NCBI RefSeq assembly: GCF_023238445.1
Contig: NZ_CP096658.1
Location: forward strand, 2,914,001-2,978,000
Source of the DNA: Halorussus gelatinilyticus
GTDB lineage: Archaea; Halobacteriota; Halobacteria; Halobacteriales; Haladaptataceae
Direction of reading: 5' to 3'
Length of the DNA stretch: 64,000 bases
Each line of letters starts with the position of its first letter. Position 1 is the first letter of the stretch. This document shows, one piece after another, positions 24,658 to 36,582 of the stretch. Under the pieces are notes generated by a model that was given only the letters and a program-made list of their open reading frames with translations, searched no databases and was not told where the DNA came from. The position numbers and the translations under genes were made by a program.

Positions 24658-24912
24658 TCAGCGTTCGCCGGTCAGCACGAGGTAGAATCCGGCGACGAAG
24701 CAGACGATGCTGAGGGTCACGAGCGCCGACCGTGACGCGATATCGCTACTCGTCGCCGCGTTCGCATACACCTGTAGCGCCAACCCGGCGAGCAGGCCGA
24801 GATACCCCGCTTTCGCCACGGTCGGCGTATCGCTCCACCGCCACGCGAGCGCCGCGACGGCCGCCGCTAAGAGCATTACTGCGAGTATCGTTTGCCACAT
24901 CACGAGGACCAT
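24658..24912 (-). CDS. Small membrane protein with three helices
   Basis: An 84-residue hydrophobic protein with helices at about 6-24 (WQTILAVMLLAAAVAALAW), 34-49 and 62-80 (LVTLSIVCFVAGFYLVLTG). On the minus strand GTATTTTAAGCG near 24946-24957 may be the TATA box and fits the ATG at 24912 better than the internal ATG at 24900. Function unknown. Confidence 0.6.
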   Translation of the reverse strand: MVLVMWQTILAVMLLAAAVAALAWRWSDTPTVAKAGYLGLLAGLALQVYANAATSSDIASRSALVTLSIVCFVAGFYLVLTGER

Positions 24913-24978
24913 ATCGAGGAGTCTCCAGTATCGAGAGTAACGCGCTTAAAATACAAAAGGTTGGCTAGGGGAACCGAA

Positions 24979-25620
24979 TCAGCACAGGGGCGCTGGACCA
25001 GTACACGGGTCACAGAGGAACCCGAGTCTCGGGGCAGAGATGATTGTCCCGATACAGGTCGCACACGTCTGGAAGTTTCGGAACGCTGCACACAGACTAC
25101 AAGCGGTGACGATGCCCGCGTACGCCCGAGACAGCCGGTACCAGCAGTTGAGATTCGGGAGACACGGACCGCACGGCAGGAGCTGTTCCGTTCCGACGTC
25201 GCCCGGCGACCGAAGCTCTTCCTCGGCCTCGCGGAGGATGCGCCGGTACTCCGCAGTCGTAAGCGTCTCCTCGGTCGTGACGACTTCGCCGTCTTCGACG
25301 CGTGACACCCGGATAATCGCCTTTGCGGTTCCGTCACCCGTGTCTACGTACGTGATTTCCCGGTATACGGGCGGTAGGTCGTCGCGGCCCGACCAGAGGA
25401 GGAACGCGTCGGTTCTCTCGCCCTCGTCGTCGCGCTCGTACTCGAACGGAACGTCCACGGTCCTGTAGGACGCCCCCGACGCAATCGTCCGAAGCGCCTT
25501 CGCGTCCCCGACTCGCGGTACTACGTCGGATCCCGTCGCCTCTCGGAGTAGCGACTGTACGCTGTCGTCCGAGAGGGCCGCGCCGATTGCGCGACCGCGG
25601 TCGCCTCGCGTGAGTTTCTT
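24979..25620 (-). CDS. Halocin C8-like peptide precursor, start codon unclear
   Basis: About 213 residues. The last 68 hold ten cysteines in a compact pattern (PCGPC, NC, CSLC, CATC, CDPC and a final LC), a hallmark of the halocin C8 family: an antimicrobial peptide cut from the C-terminus of a larger precursor whose N-terminal part gives immunity. The N-terminal part here (SDDSVQSLLREATGSDVVPR, then VDVPFEYERDDEGE) resembles the larger halves of haloarchaeal relatives. No ATG, GTG or TTG lies in frame before the GTG at 25458, although family-like sequence reaches back to about 25620, so either the start is non-canonical or the 5' end is damaged. No signal peptide is seen. It follows the lipoprotein protease gene directly. 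Confidence 0.6.
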   Translation of the reverse strand, partial: KKLTRGDRGRAIGAALSDDSVQSLLREATGSDVVPRVGDAKALRTIASGASYRTVDVPFEYERDDEGERTDAFLLWSGRDDLPPVYREITYVDTGDGTAKAIIRVSRVEDGEVVTTEETLTTAEYRRILREAEEELRSPGDVGTEQLLPCGPCLPNLNCWYRLSRAYAGIVTACSLCAAFRNFQTCATCIGTIISAPRLGFLCDPCTGPAPLC

Positions 25621-25640
25621 GTCCGGGTATGAGTAGAATC

Positions 25641-27053
25641 CTAGTCGTGCGCACCTTCGCCCGCGGCGACCGACACGCTCTCGTTCGTGCCCGAAACGCT
25701 CGCGCTCCGGACGAACGACTCGGTTCCGGCCAGCAGGACGACGCTCTCCTCGCTCGTCCGGACCGTCCGGAAGGTCAACTCGCCGTCGCGCCACGTCGTC
25801 GGCGAATCGGCCGCAGACCGATTCGCCGACTCGTTCGCTCGTGCGTCGAGATACGTCGTCAGCGCCATCTCGAACTCGTCGGCCTCGCTCGGCGAGTCCC
25901 ACCGCGTCGCCCAGACGTAGCTCCGAGTGCCGTCCTCGTCGGTGACCCGGACGAGACGGTCCGTGCCCCACCCGGCCGCGGCGTCGGCCGCGCGCGTCCG
26001 GTTCAACTCCGTCCCGACAGCGATGCGGGTGAACAGTTCTCCGTAGGTGTCGCTCCGGCCGCGGGTCCGGTTCTCGCCCGGTTCGACCGACAGCGCGAGC
26101 GACCGCGGCGTCTCCGAGCGGTCGGTGTCGTTGTGGAGAATCTGCTCGGTGGTCCGTGGCGGGGCGTCGTACACCGCCGAGAGGTTGCGCGGCGAGTCGA
26201 ACCGATGGCTCAGGTAGCGACTGCCGAAGTAGTAGCGCGCGATGCTGTACTTGACTCGCGGGGGTGCCGACCGGTAGCGCTCGGTCGTCGTAATGGACGC
26301 CCAATCGCCCGCCAGATACCGGCGGTCGTAGGCGTCGCCGACGAACGCCGCCGCGCCCTCCACGACGCTGGCGTAGGTCAGGTACGTGTCCCGCGTCGGC
26401 GTCCCGTCCACGTCGAGCGCCCGCTGGAGTCGGGCGAACGCGCGCTGGCGGAACTGGACGGTGTGGACGAACTCGTGGGCCAGCGTGCGTTCGAGCGCTC
26501 GCTCGTCGGCGGCCGTCGCCACCCGCTCGTTGACGATGACCGAGCGGGCCGACGGCGCGTAGGCCGCGACAGAGACGCCGCGGTCGCTCCCGCCGTCCGA
26601 CTCGTCGCCGGAGCCGTCGTCGGTGGTCTCGTCGTCGGAGTCGTCGTCCGACCCGCCGCTCCCGCCGTCCCCGCCGATGCCCATCACGCCCGCGAAACTC
26701 CGGGCGCTGGACCCGCTCCCCGCGTTCGGCGGACCGCCGGTGTCGTTCCGAATCTCCGCGGCGGACTTGACGATGAGAACGGTCGGCGGCGCGACGTCCG
26801 TCCCGAGGAGGTCGGTCGTCCGGGCGAAGATTTCCTCGTGGGCGACCGGGAGCGACCCGCCGCTGACCGGGATGTCGCGGTCCGAGACCGCCGATTCGTT
26901 CTCGGAGCCGGTCGAATCGGTCGCGGCCGAATCGGCGTCGGTCGTGCCCGTCGCGCCGGACGTCTCGGACGCGACGGTCGTCTGCTGTGCGGTCGGCGCG
27001 GCACAGCCTGCCAGCAGGAGACAGAGGGCGCACGCGATGGCAATCCGTGACAC
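25641..27053 (-). CDS. Hvo_1808-like surface lipoprotein with HExxH zinc-protease motif
   Basis: A 470-residue protein from GTG 27053. A lipobox LLLAGC puts the lipid-modified Cys at residue 17, followed by a Ser/Thr/Asp-rich tether, so it is anchored outside the cell. LAHEFVHTVQF (191-201) contains HExxH (His193, Glu194, His197), the zinc site of gluzincin- or DUF4157-like proteases; a likely third ligand is in the helix SVVEGAAAFVGDAYD. This matches the haloarchaeal Hvo_1808 surface-protein family. Only about 20 bases separate its stop from the halocin-like frame, so it might process or co-express with that peptide (inference). A TATA-like TTATAAAT lies on this strand near 27148-27156. Confidence 0.83.
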   Translation of the reverse strand: MSRIAIACALCLLLAGCAAPTAQQTTVASETSGATGTTDADSAATDSTGSENESAVSDRDIPVSGGSLPVAHEEIFARTTDLLGTDVAPPTVLIVKSAAEIRNDTGGPPNAGSGSSARSFAGVMGIGGDGGSGGSDDDSDDETTDDGSGDESDGGSDRGVSVAAYAPSARSVIVNERVATAADERALERTLAHEFVHTVQFRQRAFARLQRALDVDGTPTRDTYLTYASVVEGAAAFVGDAYDRRYLAGDWASITTTERYRSAPPRVKYSIARYYFGSRYLSHRFDSPRNLSAVYDAPPRTTEQILHNDTDRSETPRSLALSVEPGENRTRGRSDTYGELFTRIAVGTELNRTRAADAAAGWGTDRLVRVTDEDGTRSYVWATRWDSPSEADEFEMALTTYLDARANESANRSAADSPTTWRDGELTFRTVRTSEESVVLLAGTESFVRSASVSGTNESVSVAAGEGAHD

Positions 27054-27236
27054 GTTCCACTCGCGGGACCGGCGAAGCAAAGCGTTTGGGGTGCGGGAGA
27101 AGCGGCTTTTGCGGAACGGAGCGTTGCCTCTGTGTATCGCGGCATACAATTTATAAGGGCCGGAGGCGGTTCCGCCTCGAAAGCTGTGTGGCAATCGCGG
27201 GCCGACGGTGAATCGGACGAGAGCGACGCCGAATCG

Positions 27237-29415: not shown

Positions 29416-29421
29416 CATCGC

Positions 29422-30077
29422 TCAGGCCTCGACCGCCGTCGCCCGCTCCACCAGTTCCTGACTCACCCGCCGAATCATCGCCGCGGACGTCGGGTCGAAC
29501 GCCTCGACGCGGCGGGCCTCGAACGCCTCGCGCTCGACGGTCCGGACGACGCCGGTTTCGACGCCGTCTTCGTCGTCCGGTCGGTCGCCGTTCCGTTCGC
29601 CGTCGTCGTCTCGTGCGCCGTCGTCCCACCCGATATCGGCGTCGCCGAGGACGGTCGTGAGGGCCCAGCCGACTTCGATGTCGAGTCGTCGGCCCAGTCC
29701 AGCCAGTCGTGGATTCTGTCGGTCTTCTCGGCGTTGACGAGCAGAATCATCGCGTCGGCGGGTTCGGCGACGATGTCGAGTTCGGGGGAGAGTTTGCCCG
29801 GCGTGTCCGCGAGGACCAACTGCTCGTCACGTCCCTCGAACGTCGCGCGTTTGGTCCGCGCCGTCTGTTCGTTCCACTCGACGCCCCGGTTGTGGAGCGC
29901 CGGCGGGTCGCGGTCGTTGAGCAGGTGAGCCAGCGAATTGTCGGTCACGTCGAGCGTCTCCCACCGGAACGAGAACTCCGCGTCGCTTTCGCGTTTCCGC
30001 TCGCGAACGCAATCGACCAGAGCCGCGGCGAACGTGCTCTTGCCCGAATGGGATGGTCCGGCAACGACGACTTTCAT
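29422..30077 (-). pseudogene. P-loop NTPase of haloarchaea, frameshifted in the second half
   Basis: The gene starts MKVVVAGPSHSGKSTF with a Walker A (GPSHSGKS, 7-14); LVLADTPGKLS is Walker B-like and ILLVNAEKTDRIHDWLDW follows. At 29693-29695 the frame breaks: restoring one G on the minus strand (TGGGCC to TGGGGCC) continues as GRRLDIEVGWALTTVLGDAD, an acidic stretch, and VSQELVERATAVEA, ending at 29422. Without it the protein runs into Arg/Pro/Thr-rich noise. The protein is probably a small GTP/ATP-binding regulator. The homopolymer context means this may be a sequencing error rather than a true pseudogene. Confidence 0.7.
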
Positions 30078-30569
30078 GCTAATTCGGTTGCGGGCGAGAG
30101 GGCATAAAGCGTCTCGCCCCGGTCGAGAACGCCGCGGGTCGAGAAGCGGCGAAATCCGGGGGCTGCGGCCGAGTGGTCGTCTCGAAATCCTATTCACGGA
30201 GACATTCCGCCGTCGGATTCCGGACTTGTAAACCATATTCAGCTATATCGAATAGGCGCTGTCGGAGTAGCAGAGAGTCGGAGTTTAGCTTTCTACAAAC
30301 CACCAGATTCTATATATGAATGGACTGTATCATTTGCGGCCTCGGTTTTCTCAACGCCGTCCGCGACGACCATCCTGAACCGCTGTTTCTTCTCTTTCCA
30401 CATCTATATCCCCGGAATAGATTGTTAGTGGAGTGTTTTGAACATGTAGAGACCATGTTGGGGAATGAGTACGCCTACCGTGGGTACGTGAAAACGCATG
30501 ACCGTACAGTCGCTAGGCGTGCCCCGTTTCAGACGATGTAGTTATGCCCCGCGGGTGCCTGTTGTATCT
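30078..30569. other. Left edge of low-GC island, no convincing gene
   Basis: From about 30230 the sequence becomes visibly richer in A/T than its surroundings. A 73-codon frame at 30320-30541 beginning MDCIICG has no family features and overlaps the promoter region of the Bat gene, so I do not call it. A/T-rich TCTATATATG (30310-30319) may be a promoter remnant. Confidence 0.4.
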
Positions 30570-31214
30570 ATGTCTACGATAGCTGCGTTCACTGTTCCTG
30601 CTGACGACTTCCCACTCGGACACATCTTCGATTCTTTCCCCGAAATCACTATCGAAATCGAACAAGTGGTCCCCGTAACTGATGCTATTCTCCCCTATTT
30701 TTGGGTGCGAGAGGAACCCGTTGAACACGTCCAAACGGCCCTCGAAGCACAAGGCGCGCTCAAGTCGTACACGCTCGTCGACGACCTTGGCGACCAAGGC
30801 CTATTCCGTGCCGAGTGGGACCCAGCTGTTGAAGGTATCCTCACCGGGATTATCGACGCAGACCTGACGGTAATCTCCGCGACCGGCACCGAGGATAAAT
30901 GGAAGTTCGAGTTTCGAGCCGAAGACACCACCCAAATCGCGGCGTTCCAAGAATACTGCGCCGACCACGACATCGCTATTACGTTAGAATACCTTCACTC
31001 AGTCGGCGCGCGAACCGATGAAGGTGCGTACGGTCTCACGCCTGAACAACGCGAGGCCGTCTTGCTCGCCTACAAGAATGGCTATTACGAGACACCGCCA
31101 GAGACGAACCTTGCTGAACTGGCGGAGGAACTCGGGATTGCCAACCAGTCGTTCTCAGACCGACTCCGCCGAGGGACACGTAATCTCATCGAAGGAACAC
31201 TCGACGTGACGTGA
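30570..31214 (+). CDS. Bat-type transcription regulator (bacterioopsin-activator HTH)
   Basis: A 214-residue regulator from MSTIAAFTVPADDFPLG. The first 150 residues match the bacterioopsin activator-type sensory/output domain of haloarchaea (LPYFWVREEP, DDLGDQGLFRAEWDP, TVISATGTEDKWKFEF). The C-terminal HTH-10 domain is typical: LTPEQREAVLLAYKNGYYET and LAEELGIANQSFSDRLRRGT with the DNA-recognition helix. It is the first gene of a run with a HalOD1 protein and Cys-rich mini-proteins. Another Bat-HalOD1 pair is at 50258-51123. The target genes are unknown. Confidence 0.9.
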   Translation: MSTIAAFTVPADDFPLGHIFDSFPEITIEIEQVVPVTDAILPYFWVREEPVEHVQTALEAQGALKSYTLVDDLGDQGLFRAEWDPAVEGILTGIIDADLTVISATGTEDKWKFEFRAEDTTQIAAFQEYCADHDIAITLEYLHSVGARTDEGAYGLTPEQREAVLLAYKNGYYETPPETNLAELAEELGIANQSFSDRLRRGTRNLIEGTLDVT

Positions 31215-31303
31215 CCGTAGCTGCCTCCTTTTAAACCCGCTGAATATACTGTCGCGAACCTCAATCGAATCGAGTGCCTACGGAGTGGTAGAACATCTCA
31301 AAA

Positions 31304-31624
31304 ATGACTGACCCTACTGAAACTGCTTCGGCTACGTCGCACACTACCACGAACAACGACAGAACGACGTACCGTATCCGGGAAGGTGAATCGGTCACCG
31401 AGGCTGTCGTCCGCGCCGTCAGTGCTGAGAAAGACTCCCGCCCGACAGAAATCGAATCGCTCTACTCGGTCATCGAAACTGACGCGCTCAACGCGCTGTT
31501 CGCACCACAGCTGGGCGGCAGCCGACGGATGGCGAACGGAGCGGTCGCATTCGAGTATAGCGGGTGTGATATCCGGGTCACGCATGACGGAGAGGTCCTC
31601 CTTAGAGAGAGTGGGAAGGAGTAA
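31304..31624 (+). CDS. Single-domain HalOD1 protein
   Basis: A 106-residue protein. After a Thr-rich start it contains one HalOD1 output domain: YRIREGESVTEAVVRAVSAE, IESLYSVIETDALNALFAPQ and VAFEYSGCDIRVTHDGEVLL. HalOD1 is a small domain found alone or at the C-terminus of haloarchaeal signalling proteins; its partner is unknown. It lies 90 bases after the Bat regulator and its stop (TAA) is directly followed by the next start, so it is probably one operon with the Cys-rich proteins. Confidence 0.85.
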   Translation: MTDPTETASATSHTTTNNDRTTYRIREGESVTEAVVRAVSAEKDSRPTEIESLYSVIETDALNALFAPQLGGSRRMANGAVAFEYSGCDIRVTHDGEVLLRESGKE

Positions 31625-31912
31625 ATGTATCAGCTCGATTGCAGCTATTGCGACGTGCTGGTTGAAGGGGAAGCCGTAGACCCGGTGAAAAGAGACGCGA
31701 AGACGCACCTCAAAGAGAATCACGCCGAAGATGTGATAACAAATTTAAAGGAACAGTATACAAACGTTCCATGCCAGAACGGGTGTGGATACACAGTTCC
31801 TATCCGCGTTGAAAACGGCGCAGGAGTAGAGTGCCCGGAATGCGGCCACGATAACCTTTCACCGCTCTTAGACCAATATGTCCTCTTCAGAATAACAGCA
31901 AATAAACCATGA
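31625..31912 (+). CDS. Cys/His-rich putative zinc-binding protein
   Basis: A 95-residue protein with a C2H2-like front part (CSYCDVLVEGEAVD, later THLKENHAEDV) and a zinc-ribbon-like back part (CQNGCGYTVP and CPECGHDN). The start codon directly abuts the HalOD1 stop, and its stop overlaps the next start by 4 bases (ATGA), so it is coupled to both neighbours. Nucleic-acid or protein binding is plausible but not shown. Confidence 0.72.
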   Translation: MYQLDCSYCDVLVEGEAVDPVKRDAKTHLKENHAEDVITNLKEQYTNVPCQNGCGYTVPIRVENGAGVECPECGHDNLSPLLDQYVLFRITANKP

Positions 31913-32115
31913 CCCGTTCTGTAGAACATGAGCATCCGTGTCTATGCACTCACTCAACTAACGAATGTACTAACTGTCAAGAAGAGGAGGGGGAAGTGAC
32001 TAAAGTGACATTTGAGAGCGGGAATATCGAATGGGCATCCATTTGCGAGGGTTGCATCATAGAGTACGTTCGGGATTCGAACGTCGCTGAAATCGACCGT
32101 GTACGGCTATCATGA
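31909..32115 (+). CDS. Cys-rich mini-protein, putative zinc finger
   Basis: A 68-residue protein with CLCTHSTNECTNCQ at residues 11-24 and a second pair in ICEGCIIEYV, together giving enough cysteines for one treble-clef-like zinc site. It overlaps the previous gene by 4 bases. The composition is closer to average bacterial DNA than to the GC-rich host genes, in line with transfer. Confidence 0.6.
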   Translation: MTRSVEHEHPCLCTHSTNECTNCQEEEGEVTKVTFESGNIEWASICEGCIIEYVRDSNVAEIDRVRLS

Positions 32116-32187
32116 AATAGGGTCTGAAGGCACCACAAATTGCACGATTCAGAGCGTAATTGACCAACCAGCGAGTACATATCTACT

Positions 32188-32335
32188 TCACTCCACCGCG
32201 TCAGATGGCTGGATTTCGATGCGGCCTGAACTGAACACTCGCACTGTATGGTCACAATACGTGAACACCACCCTCCCAAACCCACGAGCCGTCCCTGATG
32301 GCGTCGGCGCAAACAGCGCATGTGTCGTTAGCCAT
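32188..32335 (-). pseudogene. 5'-truncated HalOD1 domain fragment
   Basis: Only the C-terminal half of a HalOD1 domain is present: HALFAPTPSGTARGFGRVVF followed by CDHTVRVFSSGRIEIQPSD. The usual front part (a Leu-Tyr-Ser-Val-Val-type strand and helix) is missing, and the frame upstream runs across the 3' end of the DUF7344-like gene with unrelated sequence. It is probably a deletion remnant. Confidence 0.6.
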
Positions 32336-32377
32336 CGTCGGATTCGAGGTCGCCCGCACGTCCCGTCGTCGGTTCGC

Positions 32378-32710
32378 TCACAACCAGTCGTCGGGCAGTT
32401 CGTCCTGATGGTTGTGAATGAGTTCGAGGAGTGGTCGCAAGTCATCGAAGTCAGGTCCTTTCGTCACCACGTTCTCGTCTCGATTCCAGTCGATAACGCC
32501 CATATCCTCCAGTTTCGGGAGGTGCGTGTGGGTCATCTCGATGATGAGTTGGTCGAACTCGTCGTCGGTGGTGGCCAAATCGCCGGGGATGTCGGCTTCG
32601 TCTTCTGGATTATGATCGAGTAACGTCATCAGCAGCCGCCGTCGGTACGGATTTTGAAACAGTTCGAGTGCTTCGTCGAACTCCAGCCGAGTGGTGGCGG
32701 GTGGCGTCAT
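32378..32710 (-). CDS. DUF7344-like winged-helix regulator
   Basis: A 110-residue protein from MTPPATTRLEF (an upstream start at 32746 adds 12 residues). The pattern FDEALELFQNPYRRRLLMTL then LDHNPED, followed by MTHTHLPKLEDMGVIDWNRD is the haloarchaeal ArsR-like winged-helix family named DUF7344, which often stands next to HalOD1 genes. Here a truncated HalOD1 fragment lies just downstream on the same strand. Likely a DNA-binding regulator without a known signal. Confidence 0.85.
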   Translation of the reverse strand: MTPPATTRLEFDEALELFQNPYRRRLLMTLLDHNPEDEADIPGDLATTDDEFDQLIIEMTHTHLPKLEDMGVIDWNRDENVVTKGPDFDDLRPLLELIHNHQDELPDDWL

Positions 32711-32746
32711 TTGACTACCACCCATTTCATTCGAAGAGTGAAACAC

Positions 32747-33444
32747 CTATCGTTGACTCATATCCTCACGCCCATGTTCTGAGCTGGACCCCGAACAAGG
32801 GGCATGATTCACCCAAATATTCAATACCCAGTTCAGCGTGAAAATGTAGTGGTTTGTTACGGTTCGCACCCGAGACTGTTCACGTTGCCGAACCATGTAA
32901 CCTAGAGGCTGAATAAACCCGTCTCACGAGTCACACGACCGTGACAGACTCACCAAATCGAAGCGTCACCCGTCCGACGGCCTTGTGCCAGCTGAGGCAG
33001 ATGGTGCCGACCTCGACCGATTGAAAGCGGTGTGACAGCACATACATCAACTCAAGCTGGCCGAGCTGGCTATATCGACTGGGACGGAGAGACACAGACG
33101 GTACGACGTGCCCGAGCTTCGACGAACTCGTACCGCTGCTCGCCGCAGTGAACGACCCCGATGATGTACAGGGCGTGTTCCCTGACCGATAACGACACAA
33201 TACGATACGTAACGAGAACCCACTACGTGCCTCGAACCATGTCCAGCACACCATCACCGCGAACCGTCCGTGTCCACAACCCGTGTTCTAGAGTACGCCT
33301 ACAGCCACCACGAACCCGGTATACGGTCGGAGAGTTGCAGAGCCAGTGCGCCCAGTGCCCAGATGACTGGATGGTAAAAGAAAATGAGTATCTCGTCTGG
33401 CGCGGCTGTGGATACGTCAGGTATCTCTAACACGTTCACTCACC
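32747..33444. other. Gene debris of the low-GC island
   Basis: No intact gene is visible. Plus-strand fragments look formerly coding: GADLDRLKAV near 33007-33036, then in another frame FDELVPLLAAVNDPDD ending at a stop near 33190. A later frame (33239-33430) contains CAQCPDDW but has no family features. Stops break all of them, so I read this as decayed coding DNA. Confidence 0.45.
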
Positions 33445-33654
33445 ATGCAAGTAATTGCTGCAATGGAGACCGTCGCTGGAACGGGGAACACCTACCATCT
33501 GTTGAATGAGACGAAGTCGGGGAGTCGATGTGGCTCAATCCAAATTGAATCTCGATTTGGTCGGCACGCCCACGAAATGCTGAAACGTGAAGAAGCCGAA
33601 CAACAGGGCTTGGAGCCCTGCTTACGGTGTCAGTCATATGCCGGTGAGAAATGA
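33445..33654 (+). CDS. Small Cys-containing hypothetical protein
   Basis: A 69-residue frame with GNTYHLLNETKSGSRCGSIQ and a C-terminal CLRCQSYAGEK. The CxxC and polar His-rich character resemble other mini-zinc proteins of mobile DNA. There is no family match that I recognise. The interval after it (33655-33954) has no gene I can support. Confidence 0.45.
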   Translation: MQVIAAMETVAGTGNTYHLLNETKSGSRCGSIQIESRFGRHAHEMLKREEAEQQGLEPCLRCQSYAGEK

Positions 33655-33954
33655 ACTCAACCGCTCCGTGGGAGGCGAGAACGGTTGCTATCGGAAGGTA
33701 TGATGGAAAACGAGTATTCCCGCCGGTACAAGGCGTAATCCGCTCTTTTTGCTGCAACGGCACAGCGTGGTGAGAGACTAGGCTAGTATCCTGACGTTGG
33801 CTTTCTCCTTCGAAGGGTATTGATGTCTAGGCAAATCGAAAGTAGTCGCACGCCGCTGTAAGTTCGCCATAGGTCAGGTGAACGGTTATGGGATTCGTGT
33901 GAACGGATAGCACAGCACTGGTGGTTAATGGAACCTCACGTGGCAGGAAGAGGT

Positions 33955-34287
33955 ATGCAATTCGACGCCCCGAAGGTGCTAGTTGACGCTGACCCACGGC
34001 AAGGCACGTACAATGCGACGTACCACTATCCGTCCGACCCACCGAGTACGACGGTCGCGCTCGCGCTCATGGAGATACTGGATAGCAATGTGACTGACCT
34101 CACGCCCATGCATGAGGGAGCGAGCGTGAATGCGGACGCGCTCGACGACCTGTTCGACCCGGCTGTGGCCGAAGGTGAGCCGGAGGGGATTGTGACGTTC
34201 ACCTATCACGACCACACGGTCATGGTCAAAAGTCATGGTCGCATCGTCATCCAGTCTCCGGACGCATCGTCCAGTCGGCCGCTGTGA
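33955..34287 (+). CDS. Single-domain HalOD1 protein
   Basis: A 110-residue protein from MQFDAPKVLVD. The HalOD1 pattern is complete: YNATYHYPSDPPSTTVALAL, VTDLTPMHEGASVNADALDD, LFDPAVAEG and VTFTYHDHTVMVKSHGRIVI. A longer start at 33928 is possible. It lies 169 bases before another HalOD1 gene in the same direction; the two are divergent in sequence, so they are not a recent duplication. Confidence 0.8.
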   Translation: MQFDAPKVLVDADPRQGTYNATYHYPSDPPSTTVALALMEILDSNVTDLTPMHEGASVNADALDDLFDPAVAEGEPEGIVTFTYHDHTVMVKSHGRIVIQSPDASSSRPL

Positions 34288-34456
34288 CGGCGACTGGATG
34301 ACGACGGGGGATGGTGTTACCTACGCTTGGTCGGTAAGCACGTGTGGTGGCCCAGCCTTGTGCTATACTGCTCCCCCATGGTGGGAGGGGTCCGATTGGA
34401 TATCCTTTTGCACCGATGAGCCTCGGGTTTTTCTCCATACGGAGTGTACCTGCCCC

Positions 34457-34771
34457 ATGGGAGAAAAGGAGACGGCGGACGTCAGTGAGAGCGAGTCGAA
34501 CGTCCATCATCGGAGCATCTTCGAAGACGTCGATGAAAGCCCCTCGGCGGAGTTAATCGGAATACTCGCGGAACTCAAAGGCGTTGGGACAGACGAGCTT
34601 TCGCCCTTGTACTCATGGGTGGATAGTTTGATTAGTGACCTGTACTCGTCGCCGCCACCAGCCGAGACCCAAGCGGTGATTGAGTTCACGTATGAGGACT
34701 ATCGCATTACGTTGTATCAGGACGGCCACGCTGTGCTGATGGAGCGTACCTCAGAGTCGGGCACCCACTAG
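34457..34771 (+). CDS. Single-domain HalOD1 protein
   Basis: A 104-residue protein from MGEKETADVSE. The core (SAELIGILAELKGVGTDELS, LYSWVDSLISDLY and IEFTYEDYRITLYQDGHAVL) is a HalOD1 domain. The frame is open far upstream (34235), but that part is noise. It is the last of the HalOD1 genes before the truncated Orc1/Cdc6, which it faces convergently. Confidence 0.78.
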   Translation: MGEKETADVSESESNVHHRSIFEDVDESPSAELIGILAELKGVGTDELSPLYSWVDSLISDLYSSPPPAETQAVIEFTYEDYRITLYQDGHAVLMERTSESGTH

Positions 34772-34865
34772 CGTTTAGAATCATACGGAGGCAATTCAGT
34801 CCAAGCGGGGGTACCCGGCTGATTGCTTCCTGAGTAGACTAAGGACGAGTGCAGAGCATGCGCGT

Positions 34866-35408
34866 CTAGTAGAGGGATTGATATGTACGGCCACGATTCT
34901 GTCCGTCAGCGCGGATGAGATTGTACTGCTCCCGTTTCTGGAGGTGGTTTCTCACCGTGCGGTTGGTTTTCGGGTTGTCGGCTCGGGCTCGATACGCCTC
35001 GTATAGTTCACTTGGTTCGATTTCATCGCGCTCGGTGATAATCTCGTAAAGGATGCGTTGGTCAGTCGTGAGCTTCTCAACATTGCGCTGGCGGATTTCC
35101 ACTTTGGCTTCCGAAACCGCCTCCTGAGTTACTTCATCAGTTACAGTATCGAGTGCTTGCTGAGTAGCACGGCGGGCGGCCACTCGCAATACTTCGATGC
35201 CGACGCGTGCGTCACCTGCGGCCGCGTTCGCTATCATCGCCAACTGGTCGGTCGACACGGCGTCTTCGCGGAGTCCCTGCCGAACACGGGGACGGAGAAT
35301 TTCGACTAGTTCGTCGACGGTGTAGGCGTCGAAGCTGATGCGCGTAACGGTGCGGAGTCGGCTCTGGAGACGCTCGTTGAGTGGCTGCGGAAGTGGGTTG
35401 ATGTCCAT
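34866..35408 (-). pseudogene. C-terminal half of an Orc1/Cdc6 replication initiator
   Basis: 180 residues align with the back half of archaeal Orc1/Cdc6: the end of the AAA+ module (PLNERLQSRLRTVTRISFDA, YTVDELVEILRPRV), the lid with sensor-2-like GDARVGIEVLRVAARRA, and the winged-helix DNA-binding domain (LTTDQRILYEIITE to NHLQKREQYNLI). The Walker A and B half (about 200 residues) is missing; upstream DNA to 35460 has no recognisable N-terminus. A truncated plasmid-type initiator is strong evidence for an integrated replicon remnant. Confidence 0.85.
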
Positions 35409-35727
35409 CTCGGTGAGAAGCCACCTGTGCCTGCAGGCGAGATTACCGAAATTATCGGCCTCTGCATCGGCACGGGCTATGGGTAGCTGGTAACGGTTCT
35501 TTTGGGTTCAGCAGCGCTGAAGTGGCAACGCTGGTCTTCTGCATTGGATTCCCGCCAATGTGAAGGGAAATTTTCATAGTATAGGGGGCGGGAATCGCTT
35601 CAACGAGTCGCATGGTTCTTTCGGCGCTGTGAAACATCGAATAATCTCGGAGTTCGTTTGTGACTCCGCCAAAAGTCGACCTATTGGAGTAGGAGCTGGC
35701 CGGCAGCGGACGGACCGCAGACCGGCC
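35409..35727. other. Right edge of the low-GC island
   Basis: The spacer between the Orc1/Cdc6 remnant and the PHP gene has mixed composition, with TTTTCATAGTATAGGGGGCG near 35572 as a possible promoter. No direct repeat matching the left edge of the island (about 30100-30300) could be found by eye. Confidence 0.35.
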
Positions 35728-36582
35728 ATGTCGGACGAACTGGGCGAAGCTCCGTCCGGACTCGGAAAATCGGAGCCGTTCGACGCGAGTCGGCTATCCG
35801 CGACCGACTCGGCAGTGAGGTCGTTCCGAGATTTCGCTCTCGGGGGCGAACGACTCCGTACCGAGGCGCTTTTGCCGCCCGCCTGCGAATCCTCGCCCGT
35901 GCTATCGGTCGAGCTTCACGCCCACTCGTCGCTATCGTACGACGGCCGGGACCCGGTCGATCTCCTGTTGGAGCAGGCCGCCGCGGTCGGTCTGGACGCG
36001 CTGGCGGTCACGGACCACGACGAACTCGCGGCCAGCCTCGAAGCGGTCGAGAAGGCAGGGGAGTACGGACTGGTCGGGATTCCGGGGATGGAGGTCAGTT
36101 CCGCGGCGGGCCACGTCCTCGCGCTCGGCATCTCCGAGCGGGTGCCCGCGGGCCTGTCGTTCTCCGAGACGCTCGACCGAATCCACGAGCAGGGCGGCGT
36201 CGCCGTCGTTCCCCACCCGTTCCAGAAGTCCCGGAGCGGCGTGATGGCCAACATCACCGAGACCGAACTCGCCGAAGCCGACGCCGTCGAGGTGTACAAC
36301 TCCCGGCTCCTGACCGGTCGAGGCAATCGGAAGGCCCGGCGGTTCGCCGAACGCCACGACCTCCCACAGACCGCCGGAAGCGACGCTCACATCAGCGAGA
36401 TGGTCGGGCAGGCGGTCACGCGAATCGACGCCGACGAGCACAGCGCCGCGGCCATCTTGGACGCCATCGCCGACGGCCGGACCACCGTCGAGGGCAAGCG
36501 GACTCCGTGGCACGTCAGCTTCCGGCAGGCCGCGGGCGGCGCGAAGCGCCGAGTGAAGAACCGACTCGGCGAGCTACTCTGA
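35728..36582 (+). CDS. PHP-domain metal-dependent phosphoesterase
   Basis: A 284-residue protein from MSDELGE. The PHP motifs are visible: VELHAHSSLSYDG (HxH), VTDHDELAA, IPGMEVSSAAGHVLAL, VVPHPFQ and the final AGSDAHIS, all metal ligands of the trinuclear site. PHP enzymes cleave phosphoester bonds; the substrate here is unknown. The first 70 residues are variable, so a later start (at VLSVELH) is possible. The stop overlaps the start of the asparagine synthase-like gene by one base (TGATG), so they are coupled. Confidence 0.9.
   Translation: MSDELGEAPSGLGKSEPFDASRLSATDSAVRSFRDFALGGERLRTEALLPPACESSPVLSVELHAHSSLSYDGRDPVDLLLEQAAAVGLDALAVTDHDELAASLEAVEKAGEYGLVGIPGMEVSSAAGHVLALGISERVPAGLSFSETLDRIHEQGGVAVVPHPFQKSRSGVMANITETELAEADAVEVYNSRLLTGRGNRKARRFAERHDLPQTAGSDAHISEMVGQAVTRIDADEHSAAAILDAIADGRTTVEGKRTPWHVSFRQAAGGAKRRVKNRLGELL

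Follow-up and report, generated by a model that had tools for sequence, protein, structure and literature searches.

Among the closest described systems, halocin C8 is the one in which the N-terminal part of the precursor acts as the immunity protein (cited in PMC11509114); on this precedent, an additional immunity gene is not required. In the recently described haloarchaeal protease-precursor pairs HlyR4/HapP and HlyR4/HalH4 of Haloferax mediterranei, the precursor is activated outside the cell by proteolysis, and the activating proteases are secreted serine halolysins (PMC12893001). The gene considered here recalls the first of these systems in its architecture. Like the halC8 product ProC8, its intact orthologue in a congener (genome G024) carries a Tat signal, an N-domain that opens with a helix-loop-helix and, at the C-terminus, a peptide of comparable length with ten cysteines.

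In the window (the whole 64,000-nucleotide stretch of Halorussus gelatinilyticus DNA that was analysed), a minus-strand frame closing at 24979–24981 stays open for 226 residues back to 25659 and has at its end the ten-cysteine peptide LPCGPCLPNLNCW...CDPCTGPAPLC (Table 1). An earlier note on this DNA had described this peptide, family-like sequence extending to 25620, a first in-frame start codon only at GTG 25458 and, some 20 bases ahead, the stop codon of a lipoprotein with an HExxH site. All of these features were confirmed, with precursor homology recognisable up to 25620 and the lipoprotein stop exactly 20 bases before it. The longer open reading frame of 693 aa at 24979–27060 is mostly lipoprotein sequence read out of frame. 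Because the congener has an intact gene of 91% identity, and Halorubrum and Halolamina carry further homologues, sequence comparison identifies the frame at 24979 as a real gene remnant and not a chance reading frame.

Table 1. Features of the precursor locus in the window.
Feature	Position	Strand	Remarks
TM84, 84 aa, candidate immunity protein, intact	24658..24912	-	predicted helices 2-24, 31-52, 58-83, pLDDT 86
Conserved CCTTTTGTATTTTAA element in spacer before TM84	24946..24960	-	same 15 bases in G024; putative promoter role
Remnant of a beheaded C8-like precursor of the Tat type	24979..25620	-	213 codons, 5' end without own start codon
C-terminal ten-cysteine peptide region, 66 residues	24982..25179	-	identity 63/66 to G024, 49/66 to Halorubrum
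First remaining in-frame start codon, GTG	25456..25458	-	first ATG/GTG/TTG below 25620
Helix-loop-helix opening the N-terminal domain	25537..25605	-	helices 84-96, 98-107 in model of G024 orthologue
Deletion junction region	25620..25662	-	~43 bp in window vs ~317 bp in G024; aligned blocks end at 25619 and 25663
Lipoprotein, remote relative of Hvo_1808, presumed bystander	25641..27053	-	GTG start, lipobox LLLAGC, HEFVH

The likeness to halocin C8 does not amount to family membership. Neither TIGR04449 (halocin_C8_dom, cut-off 24 bits) nor PF22862 (Hac8_like_N, cut-off 27 bits) matched the window precursor or its orthologues, whereas ProC8 matches both models, Halobacterium and Haloferax proteins reach 46–49 bits against the former, and canonical members 152–173 bits against the latter. 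Since the precursor fails both curated models, it appears to be C8-like in architecture only, with no more than a remote resemblance to the halocin C8 family. The description of the gene as halocin C8-like stood in part: a remnant of a secreted-peptide precursor with a C8-like layout was found, and the match to the halocin C8 models was not. When the N-domains of the two groups were compared without the Tat region, at best a remote similarity was seen (hhalign, 71% over 64 columns); a link between them is offered by protein L064 of genome G022, which matched the divergent N-domain model with an E value of 1e-9 and scored 23.5 bits against TIGR04449 (cut-off 24). Homology between the C-terminal peptides was considered and rejected, as profile comparison gave a probability of 0.3%; both peptides have ten cysteines, but the spacing differs. 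The mature halocin C8 sequence used as query has a 100% match in genome G031, which identifies it as a real haloarchaeal sequence. The predicted model of the precursor was poor in its signal and peptide parts (pLDDT <50), and a PDB fold search with the precursor and TM models returned nothing significant. Searches of PHROGs and PADLOC gave nothing, viral contigs held no relatives, and a scan of genome contigs with the window protein alone as query found no relative.

At the same site in G024, the orthologue (L002 1498–2376) begins with ATG, encodes 292 aa and bears the Tat motif RRRFLKTSATAASFL (RRRFLK), the signal that is deleted in the window. On both flanks of the junction the two genomes align collinearly at 87–91%, whereas the junction itself holds ~20 bp without alignment to G024. 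Absent from the window are the start codon and, ahead of it, a spacer of 79% AT that includes TATA-like stretches; the Tat signal and the first strand of the domain are missing as well. Because promoter region, start codon and signal were all in the lost stretch, the alignment indicates that the window gene was beheaded and not unusually started. Of the two options raised in the earlier note this was the second; the first, an unusual start or a frameshift from GTG 25654, found no support, since that codon lies in a third frame, from which the precursor could be read only after a frameshift, and since the intact homologues of other genera start normally and mostly show a Tat motif. The same homologues also give the direction of the change as a loss in the window, not a gain in G024. 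The helix-loop-helix sits upstream of the sole in-frame start codon left, and a product initiated there would have neither this element nor a Tat signal, which makes release of the peptide by the window strain very unlikely. In the comparison with G024, the remnant shows 0 stops, 0 indels and a dN/dS of 0.136 (bootstrap 0.08–0.23) at a dS of 0.33, similar to neighbouring genes, and for this reason the ~274-bp deletion looks recent. On the assumption that half of the divergence belongs to the window branch, a neutral phase could span no more than about a quarter of this branch (~0.46 at the upper bound). When amino-acid changes were polarised with the Halorubrum outgroup, 6 fell on the window branch and 1 on the G024 branch, which is suggestive of relaxation, though not significant.

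The lipoprotein upstream is related to the Hvo_1808 surface family (NF038145; 95.8 bits, E 3.4e-27, 257 residues aligned including the HExxH region), but it belongs to a separate subfamily, as the equivalog cut-off of 200 bits is not reached; four more relatives are encoded elsewhere in the window genome. One reading, raised in the earlier note for the case that the precursor is active, is a maturation unit, in which this surface zinc protease would cut the adjacent precursor. The genes are indeed adjacent and codirectional in both the window and G024 (where the spacer is ~36–66 bp), and haloarchaeal precursors that are activated by proteolysis have been described (PMC12893001). Orthologues of the protease, however, occur without a precursor in the congeners G016, G021 and G015 (in G015 beside purL), none of the other precursor loci checked has an adjacent HExxH gene, and in the window the protease is intact while the precursor is beheaded. 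Moreover, the known activating proteases, including that of the HlyR4 systems, are secreted serine halolysins, whereas the protease here reads as a zinc-protease-like lipoprotein. Among the loci compared, the protease-precursor order was seen in the window and G024 only, at the one insertion site that they have in common. We regard a maturation unit as highly improbable; the lipoprotein is best read as a bystander, its position next to the precursor being an accident of the insertion site. There is likewise only a slim chance that translation of the remnant continues, starting at GTG 25458 or reached through a frameshift out of the lipoprotein, and that the product has taken on a new intracellular or lipoprotein-fused role. 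The open frame, its low dN/dS and the short distance of 20 bp over which the lipoprotein runs into the remnant frame would suit such a role, but a recent deletion accounts equally well for the intact frame, the product of the GTG would be truncated as described above, no slippery sequence was seen on reading the end of the lipoprotein gene, and the excess of changes on the window branch, albeit not significant, hints at relaxation. An even slimmer chance attaches to the idea that the apparent deletion arose in assembly and that the strain itself carries the full gene. It would explain why the remnant has decayed so little, and the estimated completeness of the genome is just 96.66%; against it, the genome is a single contig, both flanks are collinear, the ~20 bp at the junction cannot be aligned to G024, and a clean loss of ~274 bp would be unusual for an assembly error.

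The real partner of the precursor is not the protease but TM84, the intact gene directly downstream for a predicted membrane protein of three helices, which was overlooked in the earlier note. With its spacer and the CCTTTTGTATTTTAA element, a possible promoter element, retained, this gene may still be expressed. Its orthologues adjoin the same type of peptide in G024, Halorubrum and Halolamina, and strong homologues (E<1e-30) were found only beside this peptide type; constraint on the protein is weak (dN/dS 0.51, interval 0.2–1.2). In G016 and G021, the lipoprotein gene adjoins the DUF7550/alpha-amylase genes, and the precursor and the 84-aa gene are both absent, from which it follows that the two come and go together.

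An intact precursor and TM protein (TM100) homologous to the window pair, and in the same order, occur on the Halorubrum trapanicum plasmid pCBA1232-01 and in Halolamina pelagica, annotated as hypothetical proteins; the Halorubrum TM protein is 33% identical to that of the window (E 4e-6). Unlike the window pair, these genes have a divergently oriented regulator and a DDE transposase gene beside them. The 4,370-bp stretch that holds the FilR1-type regulator, the precursor, the TM gene and the transposase is 99.93% identical between the two genera (L071 3884–8253 and L124 3614–7983) and must for that reason have moved recently; examination for a terminal inverted repeat revealed no clear one. 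Directly beside it on the Halorubrum plasmid lies a second set of regulator, cysteine-rich precursor and multi-TM gene with a different peptide (L071 8341–10809).

The association extends beyond this peptide type. In a sample of one genome per species, matches to the family profile were obtained in 63 of 392 class-level genomes, the weaker of which may reflect Tat signals alone. A small multi-TM gene was defined as one encoding 45–160 aa with at least 2 TM segments (called by hydropathy, except for TM84) in codirectional or convergent orientation. With gene calling and TM counts that are crude, such a gene lay immediately downstream of 18 of 22 divergent C8-like loci, against a background of 15 in 255 for the remaining genes of these stretches (odds ratio 72, Fisher p 7e-16; two of the loci are near-identical copies). 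Beyond these 18, two loci have a divergent TM gene within ~115 bp and a third has one 477 bp away. Similarity among the peptides was correlated with that among the TM proteins (Mantel r 0.77; 0.64 without the window and G024; p 5e-5), a co-divergence also expected from mere joint inheritance of the two genes, and the seven best-matching TM pairs were exactly the seven best-matching peptide pairs, some of them across families. Natrinema-type halC8 loci have no small TM gene next door, and among TIGR04449 loci the Haloferax-type and L121 are likewise without this partner. The generalisation that all TIGR04449 loci are so was rejected, as small TM genes lie close to the Halobacterium-type loci L072, L122 and L123. 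Three family matches from other genomes (L047, L055 and L069) carry an internal stop codon, on account of which decay of such precursors may be common. Three other loci (L056, L057 and L065) encode ~200-aa Tat proteins that have the N-terminal domain without a cysteine-rich peptide and are possibly stand-alone N-domain proteins.

We think it probable that 24658–25620 contains the remains of a two-gene antimicrobial module, which would have been inserted between the lipoprotein gene and the DUF7550/alpha-amylase pair. The product of gene 1 would have been a precursor exported by Tat, composed of a helix-loop-helix/beta domain at the N-terminus and the ten-cysteine peptide at the C-terminus; gene 2 encodes a small three-TM protein with a putative immunity role. 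The recent ~274-bp deletion took from gene 1 its promoter region and start codon together with the Tat signal and the first strand, and left gene 2 intact; the lipoprotein would be uninvolved. If it behaves like halocin C8, the intact precursor would be exported through the Tat system and cleaved extracellularly, which would free the cysteine-rich peptide, while the product of gene 2 would protect the producer at its membrane. Because the TM protein varies with the peptide type and the N-domain is common to different types, we take the former as the putative specific immunity factor and the latter as a possible carrier or secondary immunity part. As in a two-gene bacteriocin/immunity module, a small membrane protein is retained beside the peptide gene and matches the peptide type, and TM84 is, on this analogy, probably the immunity protein. 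The window strain may accordingly be a non-producer that is immune still. It is less likely, though worth serious consideration, that the small TM proteins serve the peptide in another way, by exporting it, helping to process it or regulating it; the immunity role is itself putative, and many of the TM genes are convergent, not cotranscribed. Proteins of ~50–155 aa, on the other hand, are too small and too diverse for exporters or enzymes, export is already supplied by the Tat signal, and variation with the peptide type is what specific, antitoxin-like partners would show.

As a dead copy, the window gene is in itself ordinary, but its analysis exposed a recurrent gene pair, a halocin-like precursor with a small membrane protein. 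The searchable open literature, to which the key halocin C8 papers do not belong, yielded no account of such pairs. On this basis, a broader proposal seems to us evenly balanced: haloarchaea might possess a large polymorphic class of Tat-exported cysteine-rich precursors beyond the tested Pfam/NCBIfam halocin C8 models, each with its type-specific small TM immunity protein and moving between genera as cassettes, in which case halocin C8, with immunity from a single gene, would be the exception and the two-gene scheme the common one. Should the partners prove to be immunity proteins, archaeal peptide antibiotics would rely on toxin-immunity pairs of much the same kind as bacterial class II bacteriocins, and many more peptides could be found by searching for the partner. 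The window strain, if it is indeed a natural immune non-producer, would be a convenient system in which to test producer/resistant/sensitive dynamics among archaea.

Elsewhere in the window, positions 29417–35843 comprise ~6.4 kb of lower-GC DNA (54%) that G024 and G016 mostly lack at this site; their collinearity with the window jumps from ~29418 to ~35844. Inside this island, a 180-aa minus-strand frame (34866–35408) has a Cdc6 lid domain (PF22703) without the AAA+ ATPase core, and appears from its domain content to be an N-terminally truncated Orc1/Cdc6-like gene, the second beheaded gene of the window.
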